Under the pieces are notes generated by a model, which worked only from the letters and a program-made list of their open reading frames with translations, was not told the DNA's origin and searched no databases. From positions 1 through 32,777 of the forward strand of contig JAFZIV010000038.1 of the NCBI GenBank assembly GCA_017554235.1: DNA of 32,777 bases. The letters run 5' to 3'. A program made the translations under genes and the position numbers. This DNA is from Selenomonadaceae bacterium. Its GTDB lineage: Bacteria; Bacillota; Negativicutes; Selenomonadales; Selenomonadaceae. Positions 1 through 28,330 of the stretch are shown here, one piece after another. Every line of letters begins with the position of its first letter. Positions within the stretch are counted from its first letter, which is position 1.

Positions 1-2
1 AA

Positions 3-104
3 TAAAAAAGTTTTAATACCGGTGGCTCGCCGGGAATTCACGACTGTGGAGTGTTACAGCAAACGTTAGTAGGTAAGCCGAGAACGGACACTTTGAAGCA
101 GTAA
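3..104 (+). pseudogene. C-terminal tail of a TnpB-like protein (remnant)
   Basis: In the frame starting at base 3 a stop (3-5) is followed by a 32-residue open stretch ending in Leu-Lys-Gln-stop at 93-104. It contains an Asp-Cys-Gly motif near 42-50. TnpB proteins of IS200/IS605 and IS607 elements commonly end with a Cys-Gly motif followed by a final Lys-Gln, so this looks like the last residues of such a gene. The rest of the gene is missing: either it is deleted, or it lies left of the window beyond a stop. The coding remnant is embedded in the RNA-like element at 16-180. Identification rests on the short tail pattern only and should be treated as tentative. Confidence 0.45.
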
Positions 105-180
105 GACAGAATCGCGAGGTCTGTCCGATTCATCTTGACATGGACACAAAGGACTTTTGTCTACATGTGACTATGTTTTA
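16..180 (+). ncRNA. omegaRNA/reRNA-like structured element, copy 1
   Basis: This segment aligns with 16565-16710. A 49-nt block (93-141) is identical in both, and upstream parts differ but keep pairing. Visible structure: CCGG 19-22 with CCGG 30-33; AGTGT 50-54 with ACACT 88-92; GACAGA 105-110 with TCTGTC 120-125; a possible pseudoknot or alternative stem AATCG 110-114 with CGATT 126-130; and a terminator-like hairpin about 138-168, followed by TATGTTTTA. The core words (CTGTGGAG, then TGAAGCAG, a hairpin, then GATTCAT) resemble the right-end guide RNA scaffold of TnpB elements. It ends 16 nt before the ATG of the lipoprotein gene, whose ribosome binding site AAGGAG directly follows. It may extend left of the window. 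The family assignment is from recalled pattern, not a search. Confidence 0.5.
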
Positions 181-196
181 AGGAGCAGTTGAAAAA

Positions 197-1207
197 ATGG
201 ATAAGGTGAAATTTTTACTCGTCGCCGTATTGATGACAGTAACGGCTATCATGACGGGTTGCGGTACAAGCACTTCGGGAAATAAAAATGTTGCGGTTTG
301 TTTTCCGAACACCACGCCGAGTTGGGAGCGTAACGGCAGTGCCTTAATAAAGTATCTTGAAGATGACGGCTTTATTGTCGATATGAAAATTTCTTCAACC
401 AGTGAAGAACAAGTCGCGCAAGTCGGTGAAGCACTTAAAAATAAGCCAAAGTGTATTGTAATTGGTGCGATTGACTCTTCCGCTTTCGCAGAGGTACTGG
501 AGGACGCTAAAACTTATAATGTGCCGGTTATCGCCTTCGACAGAATTATTTTTGGCACGGACGCGGTTACTTACTATGCCAGCTACGACAATGACGCGGT
601 AGGCGAGGCACAAGCACTTTACTTTGAGACGGTTTTAAATTTGCGAAAAGGCGGCGGTCCTTACAACATTGAATTTTTTGCGGGCGGTACTACCGATAAC
701 AATTCGCATATTTTCCTTAAAAATATCATGAGGATATTTGATCCTTATTTGAAAAACGGACAGCTTATCTGCCGCTCGGGACAAACGGCATTTGATGCAG
801 TTACCGTCAAAGATTGGTATGCTGAAAATGCTCGTCCCCGCATTAAGGAACTTTTGAATAAATATTACAACGATGAAACTTTACACGTTGTTATTTCTCC
901 GAATGATGAAATTGCGGGCGTTATCCTTGAAGAGTTTAAACGCGCAGGAAAACCCGCACCGCTTATTTGCGGACTTGACGCTGATCCAATCGCGCTTGAC
1001 AGAATCAGAAACGGTCAACAAACTTTTACCGTAGCTAAAGACCCCGCAGTTCTTACCTTAAAATGTTTTCGTATGGTTAAAGCCGTTGTCGAAGGTACAG
1101 TTCCCGACATCAATGACGTGAAAACTTACGATAACGGCGTTAAGATTGTACCTGCGTACCTTTGCACGCCGCAAATTATTGATAAATCTAATATACAAGA
1201 TTTTTAG
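197..1207 (+). CDS. Sugar-binding lipoprotein (ChvE/ribose-galactose type)
   Basis: This is a periplasmic-binding-protein-like lipoprotein of 336 residues that probably captures a sugar outside the cytoplasmic membrane. The N-terminus is a lipoprotein signal: a basic start, a hydrophobic stretch, then a lipobox ending at Cys22 (MTGC). The mature part has the type I binding-protein pattern, with two alternating lobes, a segment with IAFDRI near residue 113, and CGLDADPIALD near residue 257, as in xylose/ChvE-type proteins. The ATG at 197 follows AAGGAG at 180-185. No ABC permease or ATPase gene lies next to it, so it is an orphan binding protein that may serve a distant transporter or a sensor. 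It lies directly behind the RNA-like element at 16-180, and I see no separate promoter between them. Confidence 0.8.
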   Translation: MDKVKFLLVAVLMTVTAIMTGCGTSTSGNKNVAVCFPNTTPSWERNGSALIKYLEDDGFIVDMKISSTSEEQVAQVGEALKNKPKCIVIGAIDSSAFAEVLEDAKTYNVPVIAFDRIIFGTDAVTYYASYDNDAVGEAQALYFETVLNLRKGGGPYNIEFFAGGTTDNNSHIFLKNIMRIFDPYLKNGQLICRSGQTAFDAVTVKDWYAENARPRIKELLNKYYNDETLHVVISPNDEIAGVILEEFKRAGKPAPLICGLDADPIALDRIRNGQQTFTVAKDPAVLTLKCFRMVKAVVEGTVPDINDVKTYDNGVKIVPAYLCTPQIIDKSNIQDF

Positions 1208-16252: not shown

Positions 16253-16710
16253 CGAAATATTTTTGAAGTTAATCTAGTTTTTTTAAGGAGTGATTAACAG
16301 TTCTTCTAAATATGTAAAAATATAGACGAAGGTATAAAAATGTGTGCAGCGTAATGCTGAAAGCTCATAAAATTTAAAAGCCATTGAGCCAGTTTGTGCT
16401 AACTTTAAAGCAGCCGGAATGACAGGAAAAGAGCCAGTGCAGGTTGCAACAGTCCTGCTAACAATAGAGTAGAATCTTGTTGGTAGTCGTTGGGCAAGGT
16501 CTGGAAAATAAGCCGGAGGGCTTTATACTCACATAATCATGAAAGGAGAAAGCTACTAGATGAATACCGATGGCTAGTCGGGAATTTACGACTGTGGAGT
16601 ATTAAACAAACGTAGGTAGCTAAGGCGAATACGGATACGTTGAAGCAGTAAGACAGAATCGCGAGGTCTGTCCGATTCATCTTGACATAGACTTTTGTCT
16701 ATGTTTTAAG
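16253..16710 (+). ncRNA. Structured noncoding RNA with omegaRNA-like 3' domain, copy 2
   Basis: This is a roughly 450-nt gene-free transcript region. The 5' two thirds contain several small hairpins (for example GCAGG 16439-16443 with CCTGC 16454-16458; AACAA 16460-16464 with TTGTT 16477-16481; AAGCC 16510-16514 with GGCTT 16519-16523). The 3' part (16565-16710) matches the element at 16-180, with 49 identical bases (16640-16688). Pairings kept by compensatory changes are CCGA 16567-16570 with TCGG 16578-16581, and GTAT 16599-16602 with ATAC 16635-16638. The hairpin GACAGA/TCTGTC (16652-16672) is conserved, and the 3' end is ACATAGAC (16685-16692) with GTCTATGT (16697-16704) plus a short T-run, a terminator-like end. 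The TnpB frame is broken here. The class is uncertain; a TnpB-derived guide RNA scaffold is my best reading. Confidence 0.55.
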
Positions 16711-16725
16711 TAGCAGGATGAAATT

Positions 16726-17763
16726 TTGCTTTTAACGGTAGCAGCAGCAATTTTCGTCTTTGGACTTTTGGTATTGTTCCACGAGTTGGGACATTTTATC
16801 ACGGCTAAATTGACGGGAATGCGTGTTGATGAATTTGCAATAGGTTTCGGACCAAAAATTTTTAGAGTACGTTACGGAGAAACAGTTTATTCACTTCGCG
16901 CAATTCCACTCGGCGGCTTTAACGATATTGCGGGAATGGATCCTAGCGATAATCAGGCAGGTGAACGCGGTTATTGCGAAAAGCCCGTCTTGTCACGAAT
17001 GATTGTAATTTTGGCGGGTTCGGCGATGAATTTTATTTTGCCGATAATGATTTTCTTCGGCGTATACTGTTTTCAAGGCGTCGCGAATCCTTCACCTGAT
17101 GCGGTCTTAGGCGCGGTCGTTGATGATATGCCTGCACAAAAGGCAGGTCTTCAAGATGGCGATAAAATTTTAAGTATCAACGGTGAACCCATTGCAACGT
17201 GGGATGAGTTCACGACAAAACTTTCAGAAGATACAGAAGCAAATCCCGTAGTTATTCAATACGAAAGAAATTCACAAGTCGCTGAAGTTGAAGTTACTCC
17301 GACTATTGAAAAATCTACGGGACGCGTTTTAATCGGTGTCCAACGTTTTATGAATTATGAATCGCAAGGAATTTTTTCTTCTTTCGCAATGGCGTTGGAG
17401 CATACGCAAGAAATTTTAGCAATGATGTTGAACGCGCTGGCAGGTTTAGTTATGTCACCTTCAGGCGCGGCAGTCACCGGACCAATAGGTATCGCAAAAA
17501 TGGCGGGACAAGTTGCAACGTTGGGATTTATTCCGCTGTTAAATTTCGCGGCACTTCTTAGCTTGAACTTGGGCATAATAAATTTGTTGCCTGTCCCTGC
17601 ACTTGACGGCGGACATTTCGTCGGCTTGGTTATCGAGGCTGTACGCGGCAAACCTTTAAGCCCAAAAGCTTTAATGTATACTCAACGCGTCGGCATTGCT
17701 TTATTGTTAATCTTAACGGTCGTTGTCACGGCTAAAGATATCGTCAACGTATTTTTTAAATAG
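16726..17763 (+). CDS. rseP: RIP site-2 zinc metalloprotease RseP
   Basis: This intramembrane protease releases anti-sigma factors and clears signal peptides. The 345 residues show the zinc motif HELGH at 19-23 in the first membrane segment, a periplasmic PDZ domain (about 110-190; PAQKAGLQDGDKILSINGEPI), and the second catalytic element NLLPVPALDGGHF near residue 290. The TTG at 16726 is the start, because an ATG at 16719 runs straight into a stop and the family begins here. The only upstream Shine-Dalgarno-like bases (AGCAGGATG) are weak and lie just behind the terminator-like end of the RNA element. In most Firmicutes rseP sits between dxr and ispG; here ispG is four genes away. Confidence 0.95.
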   Translation: MLLTVAAAIFVFGLLVLFHELGHFITAKLTGMRVDEFAIGFGPKIFRVRYGETVYSLRAIPLGGFNDIAGMDPSDNQAGERGYCEKPVLSRMIVILAGSAMNFILPIMIFFGVYCFQGVANPSPDAVLGAVVDDMPAQKAGLQDGDKILSINGEPIATWDEFTTKLSEDTEANPVVIQYERNSQVAEVEVTPTIEKSTGRVLIGVQRFMNYESQGIFSSFAMALEHTQEILAMMLNALAGLVMSPSGAAVTGPIGIAKMAGQVATLGFIPLLNFAALLSLNLGIINLLPVPALDGGHFVGLVIEAVRGKPLSPKALMYTQRVGIALLLILTVVVTAKDIVNVFFK

Positions 17764-25557: not shown

Positions 25558-25659
25558 GTAAATTGTATGTAAATTGTAAAATTAAGTTATAAAAAGCTAT
25601 AAAACATTGTTGATTTTTTAAAGTTTTTTGATAAAATATTTTGAGGGGGGGTGAACTTC

Positions 25660-26280
25660 TTGAAGTATTTTACAATCAATAAATTTTCAAAAATCGTCGG
25701 AGTAACACCGCAAACGTTAAGGAACTGGGATAAAACCGACAAACTTAAACCTCATCACACGACCGAAAACGGATACAGATATTATTCCGAAGAACAATTA
25801 AAGCAAATTTTGAAAACCAAGCTGAAACAAAGAATAGTTATAGGCTATTGCAGAGTTTCAAGCCCCAAACAAAAAGATGATTTAGAGCGGCAAGTTGAAA
25901 ATGTGAAAAAGTATCTTTTGGCACAAGGTAAGTCGTTTGAAATTATCAGTGATGTTGGGTCGGGAATAAACTGTAGACGAAAAGGATTGCTTGAATTACT
26001 CAACAAAATAAATCAAGATGAAGTTGAAAAAATAGTAGTTTTGTACAAGGACAGATTATCGCGTTTTGGATTTGAATTAATTGAATACGTAGCGTCATTG
26101 CACGGGTGCGAGGTTGAAATAATTGATAACACACAAAAGACCGAACATGAAGAACTTGTAGAAGATTTGGTTCAAATAATAACAGTATTCAGTTGTAAGT
26201 TGCAAGGCAAAAGAGCGCGCAAAGCACGTAAGCTTATAAAAGAATTGGTTGGCGGTGAGCAAAATGATGAAGTCATTTAA
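25660..26280 (+). CDS. tnpA: IS607-family serine recombinase (TnpA)
   Basis: This is the transposase of an IS607-type element, 206 residues. It has an N-terminal MerR-like helix-turn-helix (FTINKFSKIVGVTPQTLRNW) for DNA recognition, then a small serine recombinase domain with the catalytic serine in IGYCRVSSPKQKDDLERQ (about residues 64-80) and the arginines in KDRLSRFGFELI. A C-terminal helix is rich in Arg and Lys. I choose TTG 25660, because GAGGGGGG (25643-25650) is then 9 nt away; GTG 25651 would abut it. It overlaps tnpB by 17 nt, the normal arrangement. This gene looks intact, but the element as a whole is broken. Confidence 0.92.
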   Translation: MKYFTINKFSKIVGVTPQTLRNWDKTDKLKPHHTTENGYRYYSEEQLKQILKTKLKQRIVIGYCRVSSPKQKDDLERQVENVKKYLLAQGKSFEIISDVGSGINCRRKGLLELLNKINQDEVEKIVVLYKDRLSRFGFELIEYVASLHGCEVEIIDNTQKTEHEELVEDLVQIITVFSCKLQGKRARKARKLIKELVGGEQNDEVI

Positions 26281-27094
26281 AGTAATGCTGATACCGAACA
26301 AAAGGCAAAGAACAAGACTTTTTCAATTTGCGGGAAGTGCGAGATTTGCGTACAACTGGGCATTAAACAAAGAGATGACCGCTTTTAAAAATGGCGAAAA
26401 ATTCATAAGCATAGATGATTTAAGGAAAGAATTTACGTTGCTTAGGAATTCAGCTGAATACAAATGGCTGAAGAAAATATCAAACAATGTGACAAAGCAA
26501 GAGATAAGAGATTTAGGCAAAGCATACGCAAATTTTTTTGAAAAGCAAGAATCCACGAAAGTAAAATTCACTAAGAAAAAATTAAAACATCTGGCGCGAG
26601 TAGGAAAAAGTCCGACGGTGTACGATATGAACGGACACCCTAAGTTTAAAAGCAAACACAACGGAGATTACAGTTTTTACCAAGATACAGCCAAAATCAA
26701 GATAACCACGACCCACGTCAAACTTGAATCAATCGCGTTAAGTCGAAGAAAAAATCGGCAGAAATTAAATTGTATAAAACTTGCAGAGATTGGAAGATTA
26801 CCGATTGGTGAGAAGTACAAAAATCCGAGAATAAGTTATGATGGGTTAAATTGGTGGTTATCGGTATCGGTAGAATTTGAGTCTAAAAAATCTGAAGGCA
26901 AATTTACAGAAAGTATAGGAATAGATTTAGGGCTGAAAAGCTTGGCGGTATGTTCAGACGGCAGAATTTATCCTAGTATCAATAAAACTAAAACGATAAG
27001 AAAACTTGAAAAGAGACAGCGGCGATTAAATCGCTCAATCTCCAGAAAATATAAAATGAACAGAAAGACCAGCTATAAAAAGTCAAGAAGAAAA
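26264..27094 (+). pseudogene. tnpB: tnpB, 3'-truncated by IS110 insertion
   Basis: TnpB is the RNA-guided nuclease of IS605/IS607 elements. About 277 codons remain: the N-terminal helical part (KVMLIPNKRQRTRLFQFAG) and the start of the split RuvC domain with the first catalytic Asp in IGIDLGLKSLAV (about residue 221), then the arginine-rich region ending SYKKSRRK. The second RuvC acid, the zinc finger and the C-terminal tail are gone, because family similarity stops near 27094 where an antisense IS110 transposase begins. The frame runs on to 27181 through foreign sequence. It cannot be an active nuclease, and its own right-end guide RNA is not seen downstream. Confidence 0.88.
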
Positions 27095-27682
27095 ATGAGC
27101 GGGAACGTAAGGTTGGTTATCACGCATAACAGCAAAAATAATGGAAAGCATTTTATGACAAATATGTCCCATAATGTTTAAATGGTCTCTACCTTCAGCA
27201 TGTTTTCTCTCGTAAAGCTGATGAATGGCAGGGGCGTTAAAAGCGGCAACAAAAGAAGCAAGCCAAATAGCGCGTCGTAAATACGGACTACCGCGTTTCG
27301 ACAAATGACCTTTCGTATTTATAGATTCGCCGGATTGTCTGTTTTTTGGATAAAGCCCGGCGTAAGCTACCAATTTAGGTATAGTGGGGAATTTAGAAAT
27401 ATCGCCACCAATTTCAGAAAAGATAACGGCAACAAGAGTTTTGCCAATACCGGTAATAGTGTGGAGTTTGCAGTCGAAAGTATCGTAAATTTTGGCAATT
27501 TCAGCGTCAAAAATATCAATGGAAACTTCAAAAGATTTAAGTTGTTCAATATATTGCTTGATGATGAGAGAAAGAGAAGAGGAGGCGAGAATAATGCCGA
27601 AAGAATTTCTGGCGAAGTCTTGAATTTGGTAAGCCTTGTCGATACCGAATCTGCCACGACTTGTCTTAGAAAACGTGTTCAT
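27083..27682 (-). pseudogene. IS110-family transposase, C-terminal half only
   Basis: About 199 residues of an IS110-type transposase remain. The Transposase_20 domain is clear (ITGIGKTLVAVIFSEIGGDI, then KLVAYAGLYPKNRQSGE) and holds the catalytic Ser in the block SKRGSPYLRRAIW. The N-terminal RuvC-like DEDD domain is absent: similarity stops near MNTFSKTSRGRFG, beside the IS5-type pseudogene. The stop codon appears to lie in or at the edge of the target tnpB sequence. IS110 elements carry a bridge RNA at one end, but with the 5' side lost here none can be assigned. Confidence 0.85.
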
Positions 27683-27707
27683 AAGTAAAAAAATATGATA
27701 AAATAAA

Positions 27708-28330
27708 ATGGTTATGAGAAAAAAGTATGAGACAGACTTAACGAATAAGCAGTGGGAAGAAATAGAGCCTCTGTTCACAAATATGAGGAAACGGAAAAGG
27801 GAAAAGAGAGAACTGGTCAATGCTGTGTTATATCTGGTGAAAACAGGATGCCAATGGAGAAATTTGCCGCACGATTTTCCACCGGCGTTTACGGTACCAT
27901 CTGGTAAAAGTAACGAGGCAAAAAGCAGGACTTGAAGATAATCCAAAAGAAACATTGATAGACTCGCAGAGCGTGAAGACAGCCGGAGCCAGTGAAGTTC
28001 ACGGATATGACGGGGGAAAAAAACGAAAGGGATAAAGAGACAAATAGTAACAGATGAAATAGGGAATCTGTTAAGTGTAGTGGTACACGCGGCAGATTTA
28101 CACGACACAAAAGTAGGAATTAAAGAAATTTATTGCGGATGGGGGATATAGGAAAACATTAAAACACGAATTTAAAGTGATAGCTAAACGTTGGAAAGGA
28201 CATTGTCGTGGTTAAATCATTCCAAGAGTTAAGAATATAGCTGTAAATCCGCAGAGACTATGGTCAAAATTTCTCATATTCATATTTTGCTTAAACGTTT
28301 ATGAACACGCATTCTTAGAAAATACGAGAG
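27708..28330 (+). pseudogene. IS5-family transposase, decayed
   Basis: The N-terminal part reads [17 protein letters not shown] and [12 protein letters not shown], the DUF4096 lead of IS5-type transposases. The DDE domain resumes in another frame with LIDSQSVKTAG. It then needs a shift in the A-run near 28018-28024 to continue as KRQIVTDEIGNLLSVVVHAADLHDTK. A segment between the two blocks (near 27890) is deleted, and stops occur near 28148 and 28216. At least one deletion, one frameshift and several nonsense changes make it inactive. It sits at the broken end of the IS110 gene. Confidence 0.85.

Follow-up and report, generated by a model that had tools for sequence, protein, structure and literature searches.

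The two copies of a guide-RNA scaffold in the window (the whole stretch of DNA analysed, 32,777 nt) are probably guide-RNA-only, MITE-like, non-autonomous elements of the IS607 family that use TnpA and TnpB in trans. Sequence comparison points to this reading through RAGATH-18 identity, precise ends, insertion after RGGAG, near-identical orphans, covariation in the scaffold, and TnpB and TnpA genes elsewhere in the genome that look intact. According to Ren et al. (2024, PMC11061315), RAGATH-18 forms the core of the guide RNA (reRNA) of IS607 TnpB nucleases, and TnpB takes the sequence 3′ of the scaffold as its guide and cuts a TAM plus target. By the same logic, the guide of an orphan would be the start region of its host gene, and its target would be the empty allele.

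Features of the window

The window is the entire contig JAFZIV010000038.1 (C33) of a 2.27-Mb, 65-contig genome (G000); C handles denote contigs of this genome and G handles denote genomes of the same genus. The host is probably a gut bacterium. A 32-base scaffold core was present in nine named contigs, all from Selenomonadaceae or Selenomonadales MAGs, and the four with a stated source came from goat omasum or reticulum or from water-buffalo cecum. The features are as follows.

1..188, + strand: copy 1, in-contig part of a type A orphan element, whose right end ..TTTTAAGGAGCAG stops at 188
End of contig C39: putative left end of copy 1, after AAAAGGAG
17..188, + strand: copy 1 reRNA scaffold (5′ hairpin, RAGATH-18, 3′ stem-loops)
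43..104, + strand: copy 1 RAGATH-18 motif (67.8 bits, E 1.1e-11)
180..185, + strand: AAGGAG within the copy 1 right end, likely replacement Shine-Dalgarno (from anti-SD pairing energy)
189..208, + strand: predicted 20-nt guide of copy 1, covering the ATG at 197 (by analogy with the ISFba1 reRNA)
197..1207, + strand: copy 1 host gene, Peripla_BP_4 substrate-binding lipoprotein
16286..16290, + strand: AGGAG, predicted TAM and original Shine-Dalgarno of rseP (from rseP relatives)
16291..16716, + strand: copy 2, complete type B orphan element, 426 nt, longest stop-to-stop frame 77 aa
16331..16562, + strand: type B leader of copy 2, conserved structured RNA with no assigned Rfam family
16565..16716, + strand: copy 2 reRNA scaffold
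16591..16651, + strand: copy 2 RAGATH-18 motif (60.2 bits, E 1e-9)
16717..16736, + strand: predicted 20-nt guide of copy 2, covering the TTG start at 16726 (by analogy with the ISFba1 reRNA)
16726..17763, + strand: copy 2 host gene, rseP-like site-2 protease (Peptidase_M50 and PDZ)
25651..26280, + strand: IS607-type TnpA (MerR HTH and serine resolvase), open frame, candidate transposase in trans
26249..27181, + strand: IS607-type TnpB, truncated, homology stopping near 27067, adjoining an IS110-type transposase gene
27083-28108, - strand: IS110-type transposase gene (PF02371)

The 49-nt identical block and longer related region reported in an earlier note were confirmed: the block is exactly 49 nt long, and wider repeats of 86 nt (90% identity), 42 nt (88%) and 26 nt (85%) join the two copies at spacings of 16,528–16,548. 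That note had also taken the copies for guide-RNA scaffolds without an adjoining nuclease, which was right in kind, as both score above the curated gathering threshold (44.9) of Rfam RF03064 (RAGATH-18). The absence of the IS607 tnpB expected directly upstream of a RAGATH-18 reRNA was read directly at copy 2. The window begins inside copy 1, so the same absence cannot be read there from the window; it holds only if contig C39 precedes C33. In G002 and G011, two paralogous lipoprotein genes stand in tandem; here, C39 ends with one paralogue, AAAAGGAG and a type A left end, in that order, and C33 opens with the other paralogue. Synteny with these two relatives thus suggests that C39 adjoins C33, which would make copy 1 an orphan as well. 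No tnpB lies next to either copy within the window, yet an IS607-type tnpA and a truncated tnpB are found 9 kb from copy 2. The short TnpB-like tail ending in Lys-Gln-stop that had been ascribed to copy 1 is a chance frame; the tnpB genes of C21, C36:106570, C14 and C62 stop (GCGTAA) upstream of the scaffold.

Anatomy and copy number of the elements

RAGATH-18 was matched 26 times in this 2.27-Mb genome, with 20 matches above gathering. Reading upstream, an element left end or leader but no tnpB preceded 14 copies (C58, C28, C18, C33 twice, C5, C11, C24, C42:27091, C7, C53, C50, C2 and C17:1; C5, C28, C53 and C50 show just part of it before the contig stops), a tnpB preceded five (C1, C36:31296, C14, C62 and C21), and seven were cut by contig ends (C3, C25, C4, C42:52708, C16, C17:37774 and C26). 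The complete type A copies (n = 3; C58, C42 and C11) measured 245, 254 and 264 nt, and the complete type B copies (n = 7, including that of the window) 426–536 nt, compared with 1379 and 1394 nt for two tnpB-bearing relatives; these lengths were taken with a GGAG-anchored pattern, which missed C7. The longest stop-to-stop frames of the orphans were 43–77 aa. Since an IS607 element encodes TnpA and/or TnpB and no such frame is present, the orphans are non-autonomous relatives and not IS607 elements proper, although a GG-containing, AG-rich TAM adjoins the left end as in IS607. As in MITEs, the ends are common to a protein-coding element and near-identical copies occur at different sites. In G010, three 467-nt type B orphans differed pairwise by 2 nt, suggesting that orphans spread as orphans.

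To judge from their sequences, the complete orphans are short elements with both transposon ends, not random IS ends. Thus, of the scattered, randomly truncated IS ends that the earlier note had set against its own proposal, the scattering was observed and the random truncation was not, complete copies having exact ends and insertion points. The type A left end of C58 carries a promoter-like TTGACA-17-TAAAAT (11 of 12 consensus bases), in a scan that overall returned 3 sites against 1.6 expected; no terminator was found near this element.

Two further observations concern the element ends and bodies. At C28, C4 and C5 (L003, L010 and L011), right ends are followed by CAG or CAGCAG, possibly reflecting nested or tandem insertion, with a new element placed after the GGAG of an older right end. 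In at least six copies (C26, C21, C42, C17, C16 and C36; L021, L022, L023, L024, L025 and L029), a palindromic repeat of the GGTCAGTAATCAGTG type stands in place of the apical part of RAGATH-18, and it is present in both full-length tnpB elements of the type A/B family.

Insertion sites and the Shine-Dalgarno sequence

GGAG stood directly before the left end in all eight type A copies with a visible flank, in eight of ten type B copies (both exceptions have divergent left ends) and in both tnpB-bearing elements of the type A/B family (C21 and C36:106570); left ends found with a search pattern containing GGAG were excluded from these counts, and the type B copies C50, G014a and G017c were dropped as their left flank lay outside the slice. 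The more distant C1 element sits after AGGGG. In the G019 subfamily, GGAGG was found 6–7 nt before the inverted-repeat end in 7/7 complete elements. The published TAM of this TnpB clade is given as AGGAG in 18/22 strains, and single changes are reported to abolish cleavage in ISFba1 (PMC11061315). Several left flanks here are GGGAG, and TnpB would therefore have to tolerate G at the first TAM position.

At both window copies, the RGGAG after which the element is inserted is the Shine-Dalgarno of the gene, so that each copy lies just before a gene, as the earlier note had observed. The window rseP reads TTAAGGAG, then the 426-nt element, 9 nt and TTG, whereas its two closest relatives among the loci listed read TAAGGAG, 9 nt and TTG with the Shine-Dalgarno uninterrupted. 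No element was present at this site, within 110 nt upstream of rseP, in any of the 29 other loci listed (from a search matching 59/60 genomes).

Among the right ends found by pattern, 14 of 22 had the start codon of an ORF (60 aa or longer) 5–12 nt downstream, and the other eight had none at that spacing. Against all RGGAG sites in 155 kb (41/227, 18% at start-codon spacing), this suggested strong targeting of Shine-Dalgarno sequences, which was rejected, as only a modest excess is left against non-coding RGGAG (29/81, 36%; P 0.007). Thus, the TAM together with avoidance of coding sequence explains the greater part of the placement but not this modest excess. A Pfam scan of ten genes behind family right ends, tnpB-bearing (C62) and contig-end-cut insertions among them, gave a match in nine; the genes behind right ends include pyruvate kinase, PFK (pfkA), CsrA, SpoVS, an aminotransferase and a glycosyltransferase.

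The right end was AAGGAGCAG in 7 of the 10 type A copies in which it was read, and AAGTAGCAG in all five tnpB-bearing relatives seen. Six gene-proximal AAGGAGCAG right ends (C33, C11, C25 and C58, type A; C6 and C26, type outside view) paired with the anti-SD at -7.4 to -11.9 kcal/mol, and at -0.5 to -5.0 after in-silico change to AAGTAGCAG (AAGGAG to AAGTAG); for copy 1, the values were -7.4 and -2.5 kcal/mol. The modelled empty sites, for which AAGGAG was assumed for every gene, gave -8.1 to -10.9 kcal/mol, close to these six. Eight other right ends were AGTAGCAG (+0.1 to -5.4 kcal/mol), and eleven G019 sites gave -1.7 to -9.9 against -8.2 to -12.2 kcal/mol for their modelled empty counterparts. 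By these energies, type B and tnpB-bearing right ends do not rebuild a strong Shine-Dalgarno.

Scaffold conservation

Covariation was assessed in 24 distinct scaffolds for which no upstream tnpB was seen. This genome supplied 13 of them (both window copies included; C3, C25 and C4 start at contig ends) and relatives supplied 11; the set was obtained from 30 scaffolds by leaving out five tnpB-bearing ones and C26. Standard pairs made up 98.2% of pair cells. Eight pairs changed on both sides, against 3.5 ± 1.0 in shuffles (reached in 0/500) and at most two when slid, although related rows can exceed shuffles without structure; further pair types, a weaker measure, numbered 20 against 17.6 ± 1.1 (24/500). 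The scaffold is thus kept by covariation, as in a reRNA, and this covariation may be inherited from tnpB-bearing parents. The fold z-score from one copy alone was merely -1.94, so covariation, not energy, bears the structural claim. Within G019, 4/20 pairs changed on both sides (15 of its 19 copies).

The type B leader

The type B leader (~230 nt) is conserved, with invariant hairpins across 11 aligned copies, and is a candidate new structured RNA on sequence grounds. Besides RAGATH-18, an Rfam scan of the leader region gave chance-level matches alone (E 2.8 to 8.1). A possible long-range pseudoknot, GAGTA/TACTC crossing AATGAC/GTCGTT, was noticed. A hand-made fold with a P3/P7-like pseudoknot found partial support; helix 4 was 75.8% paired, with two rows seemingly shifted by one column.

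A group I intron, which would make these elements IStrons, was considered for the leader and rejected: Rfam gave no such intron for the window region (E ≤ 10) or for the copies of three relatives (E ≤ 5), and the positive control, L074, scored 34.1 bits (E 1.4e-5, below gathering). The group I intron that marks the left end of an IStron is thus not recognised in type B, and, at ~75 nt, the left end of type A seems too small for one. Separately, a probable group I intron occurs in L074 (1692-1902 and 3297-3357; C36, about 29.7-31.4 kb) together with RAGATH-18 and a tnpB that occupies two frames of 139 and 227 aa. This arrangement follows an L10 leader and, as judged by eye, lies within the beginning of rplJ; it would be an IStron in an essential gene.

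Candidate partner proteins

Full-length TnpBs that could serve in trans, as the earlier note had supposed, were found as candidates in C21, C36:106570 and C1. Those of C21 and C36:106570 (383 and 384 aa from ATG) are 85% identical, and palindrome-interrupted scaffolds lie beside their genes, one cut by a contig end. The C21 TnpB matched ISFba1 TnpB (PDB 8IAZ) over its length (E 3.4e-114); 8IAZ is a D371A mutant and hence has A at the third triad position. The C1 TnpB is more distant and intact, and C14 and C62 hold partial TnpBs. Read by eye, the RuvC D-E-D was kept in 3/3 full-length TnpBs with adjacent RAGATH-18 sequence (C1, C21 and C36:106570), and thus none of these three is a RuvC-dead partner of the kind found in TldR systems.

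The truncated TnpB of the window is 84.6% identical to the C1 TnpB over residues 2-273, and no RAGATH-18 was found in the window downstream of its tnpA-tnpB pair (25651-28108). The window TnpA belongs with a C1-like element having other ends, so its action on type A and B ends is uncertain; no TnpA was seen next to any of the tnpB genes related to types A and B. At C6:6306, there is another resolvase frame, 202 aa long.

Relatives across the genus

Across 60 genomes, including the own genome, 203 RAGATH-18 matches (summed over 60 of 66 rows) and 140 TnpB zinc-ribbon matches of all kinds were counted. Of the 60 genomes, seven have reRNAs but gave no match in either of two TnpB searches, all of them drafts of 71–99% completeness: G019 (19 reRNAs), G018 and G071 (two each), and G008, G012, G022 and G069 (one each). 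G074 (14 reRNAs) has no zinc ribbon and a TnpB fragment at a contig end, and G024 (10 reRNAs) has just a distant zinc ribbon.

In G019, 12 of the 15 copies read lie 6–11 nt before a start codon (that of rplD by eye). Pfam assigned the genes rpsJ, rplW, rplE, rpsN, adk, rpsR, atpC, dnaJ, carD and an NfeD-like gene, with rplD and one more gene identified by eye; the other three copies precede infC with an ATT start (by eye), a tRNA gene and no clear gene. G019 gave no TnpB match; on its contig C1 (L181), a 12.1-kb stretch of ribosomal-protein genes and adk contains six RAGATH-18 elements.

Proposed mechanism and alternative explanations

In the favoured reading, TnpA would mobilise the guide-only elements in trans, and each insertion would hand the reRNA a new guide, namely the translation start region of the host gene. 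By analogy with ISFba1, a TnpB acting in trans would load the orphan reRNA and cut alleles lacking the insertion (RGGAG plus guide), whereby the element would be retained or homed though encoding no protein. The AAGGAGCAG right end would supply a new Shine-Dalgarno and so make insertion into a ribosome-binding site tolerable. Observations that speak against this trans guide model include the reRNAs in seven genomes without a TnpB match (19 of them in G019), the two type B copies without GGAG, the position of C1 after AGGGG, the modest size of the excess at Shine-Dalgarno spacing, the promoter scan with 3 sites against 1.6 expected, the weak anti-SD pairing of type B and tnpB-bearing right ends, and the other ends of the C1-like element to which the window TnpA belongs. 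The elements might instead be passive MITEs, in which an inert RNA is kept merely because the scaffold overlaps the right end needed by TnpA. The exact ends of complete copies and the persistence of orphans in G019 fit this explanation, which we nevertheless regard as rather unlikely given that two-sided pair changes are spread over the whole scaffold (in copy 2, up to ~145 nt away from the right end) and that one type A left end bears a promoter-like sequence of its own.

The copies had also been proposed to guide a nuclease-dead TnpB (TldR-like) regulating genes in trans, and their position just before genes fits this proposal. We consider this very unlikely, because D-E-D is kept in all three full-length TnpBs examined, the guide matches the host gene's own start region and the copy-2 site is empty in every orthologue listed (29/29). 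The same emptiness (insertion in 0/29 orthologues listed) weighs against cis-acting 5′-UTR elements, i.e., insertions kept because they alter the host promoter, Shine-Dalgarno or mRNA processing. Insertions of the family upstream of csrA, pfkA, pyruvate kinase and spoVS (not every one a proven orphan), the G019 insertions before ribosomal genes, adk and carD, and right ends that rebuild a Shine-Dalgarno are all in line with such a role, yet cost-free insertion accounts for the same facts, and we judge it improbable for the family as a whole. The G019 elements, with six among ribosomal-protein genes and adk, may nonetheless have become 5′-UTR parts. Many copies lie at contig ends, where tnpB could have been lost from collapsed repeats; such an assembly artefact is still possible for the seven contig-end-cut copies, but as a general explanation its probability is negligible since complete orphans of 245–264 and 426–536 nt were read with both flanks.

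Beyond the favoured trans guide model, we tentatively raise the possibility of a dispersed guide array, in which one or two TnpBs would serve a dozen or more protein-free mobile guide genes, each with a guide of its own and many homing into host Shine-Dalgarno sequences that their right ends rebuild. The TnpB-bound ISFba1 RNA is reported to end 10 nt into the flank (PMC11061315). Since the guide and the start codon of the host gene occupy one stretch of RNA, reRNA maturation in such an array would cleave the host mRNA and couple TnpB levels with host translation.

Comparison with known systems and significance

MITEs and non-autonomous IS605/IS607 derivatives are short and ORF-less, with ends common to a protein-coding element. 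The orphans resemble MITEs in these respects; here, however, the body is largely a nuclease guide-RNA gene, and type A has its own promoter-like sequence. TldR systems combine a nuclease-dead TnpB with a guide RNA away from an ordinary IS; the orphans share the latter trait, whereas here neither a nuclease-dead partner nor a conserved place was seen. The ISFba1 RAGATH-18 reRNA (PDB 8IAZ) is alike in RNA family, TAM class (AGGAG) and partner TnpB clade, but here there is no adjacent tnpB. Group B IStrons of the IS607 class, e.g., SrISt1 of Selenomonas ruminantium, are described with ORF-less variants such as BcISt1 (Tourasse et al. 2014, PMC4227781). The orphans are similar in IS607 class, GG target and ORF-less variants, whereas no recognisable group I intron occurs in copy 2 or the three related leaders. 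TnpB is reported to produce guide RNA from its own mRNA by 5′ processing (PMC10278001). It has also been described as an IS gene drive, in which the guide records the insertion site and IS-free DNA is cut (PMC11870625). In that account the IS encodes TnpB itself, whereas here TnpB would be borrowed.

The RNA family, IS607 class and TAM have been described before, and guide-only elements in Shine-Dalgarno sites, as suggested by these sequences, were not found in the literature searched. Titles and the starts of abstracts, covering few subscription papers, revealed nothing on orphan or MITE-borne RAGATH-18 RNAs or on insertion into Shine-Dalgarno sequences. Of 16,029 RAGATH-18 RNAs, 10,258 (64%) are reported to adjoin an IS607 TnpB; in the main text of that paper the words 'orphan' and 'in trans' are absent, and its passages on RAGATH-18 do not treat the remaining 36% (PMC11061315).

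Guide-only elements could account for part of this 36%. The coincidence of TAM and Shine-Dalgarno accounts for the frequent position of these insertions before genes and makes the guide of every copy predictable. TnpB is regarded as the ancestor of Cas12. Mobile elements that carry a guide alone would represent a natural case in which guide and nuclease have been separated, as the route to CRISPR arrays also required.
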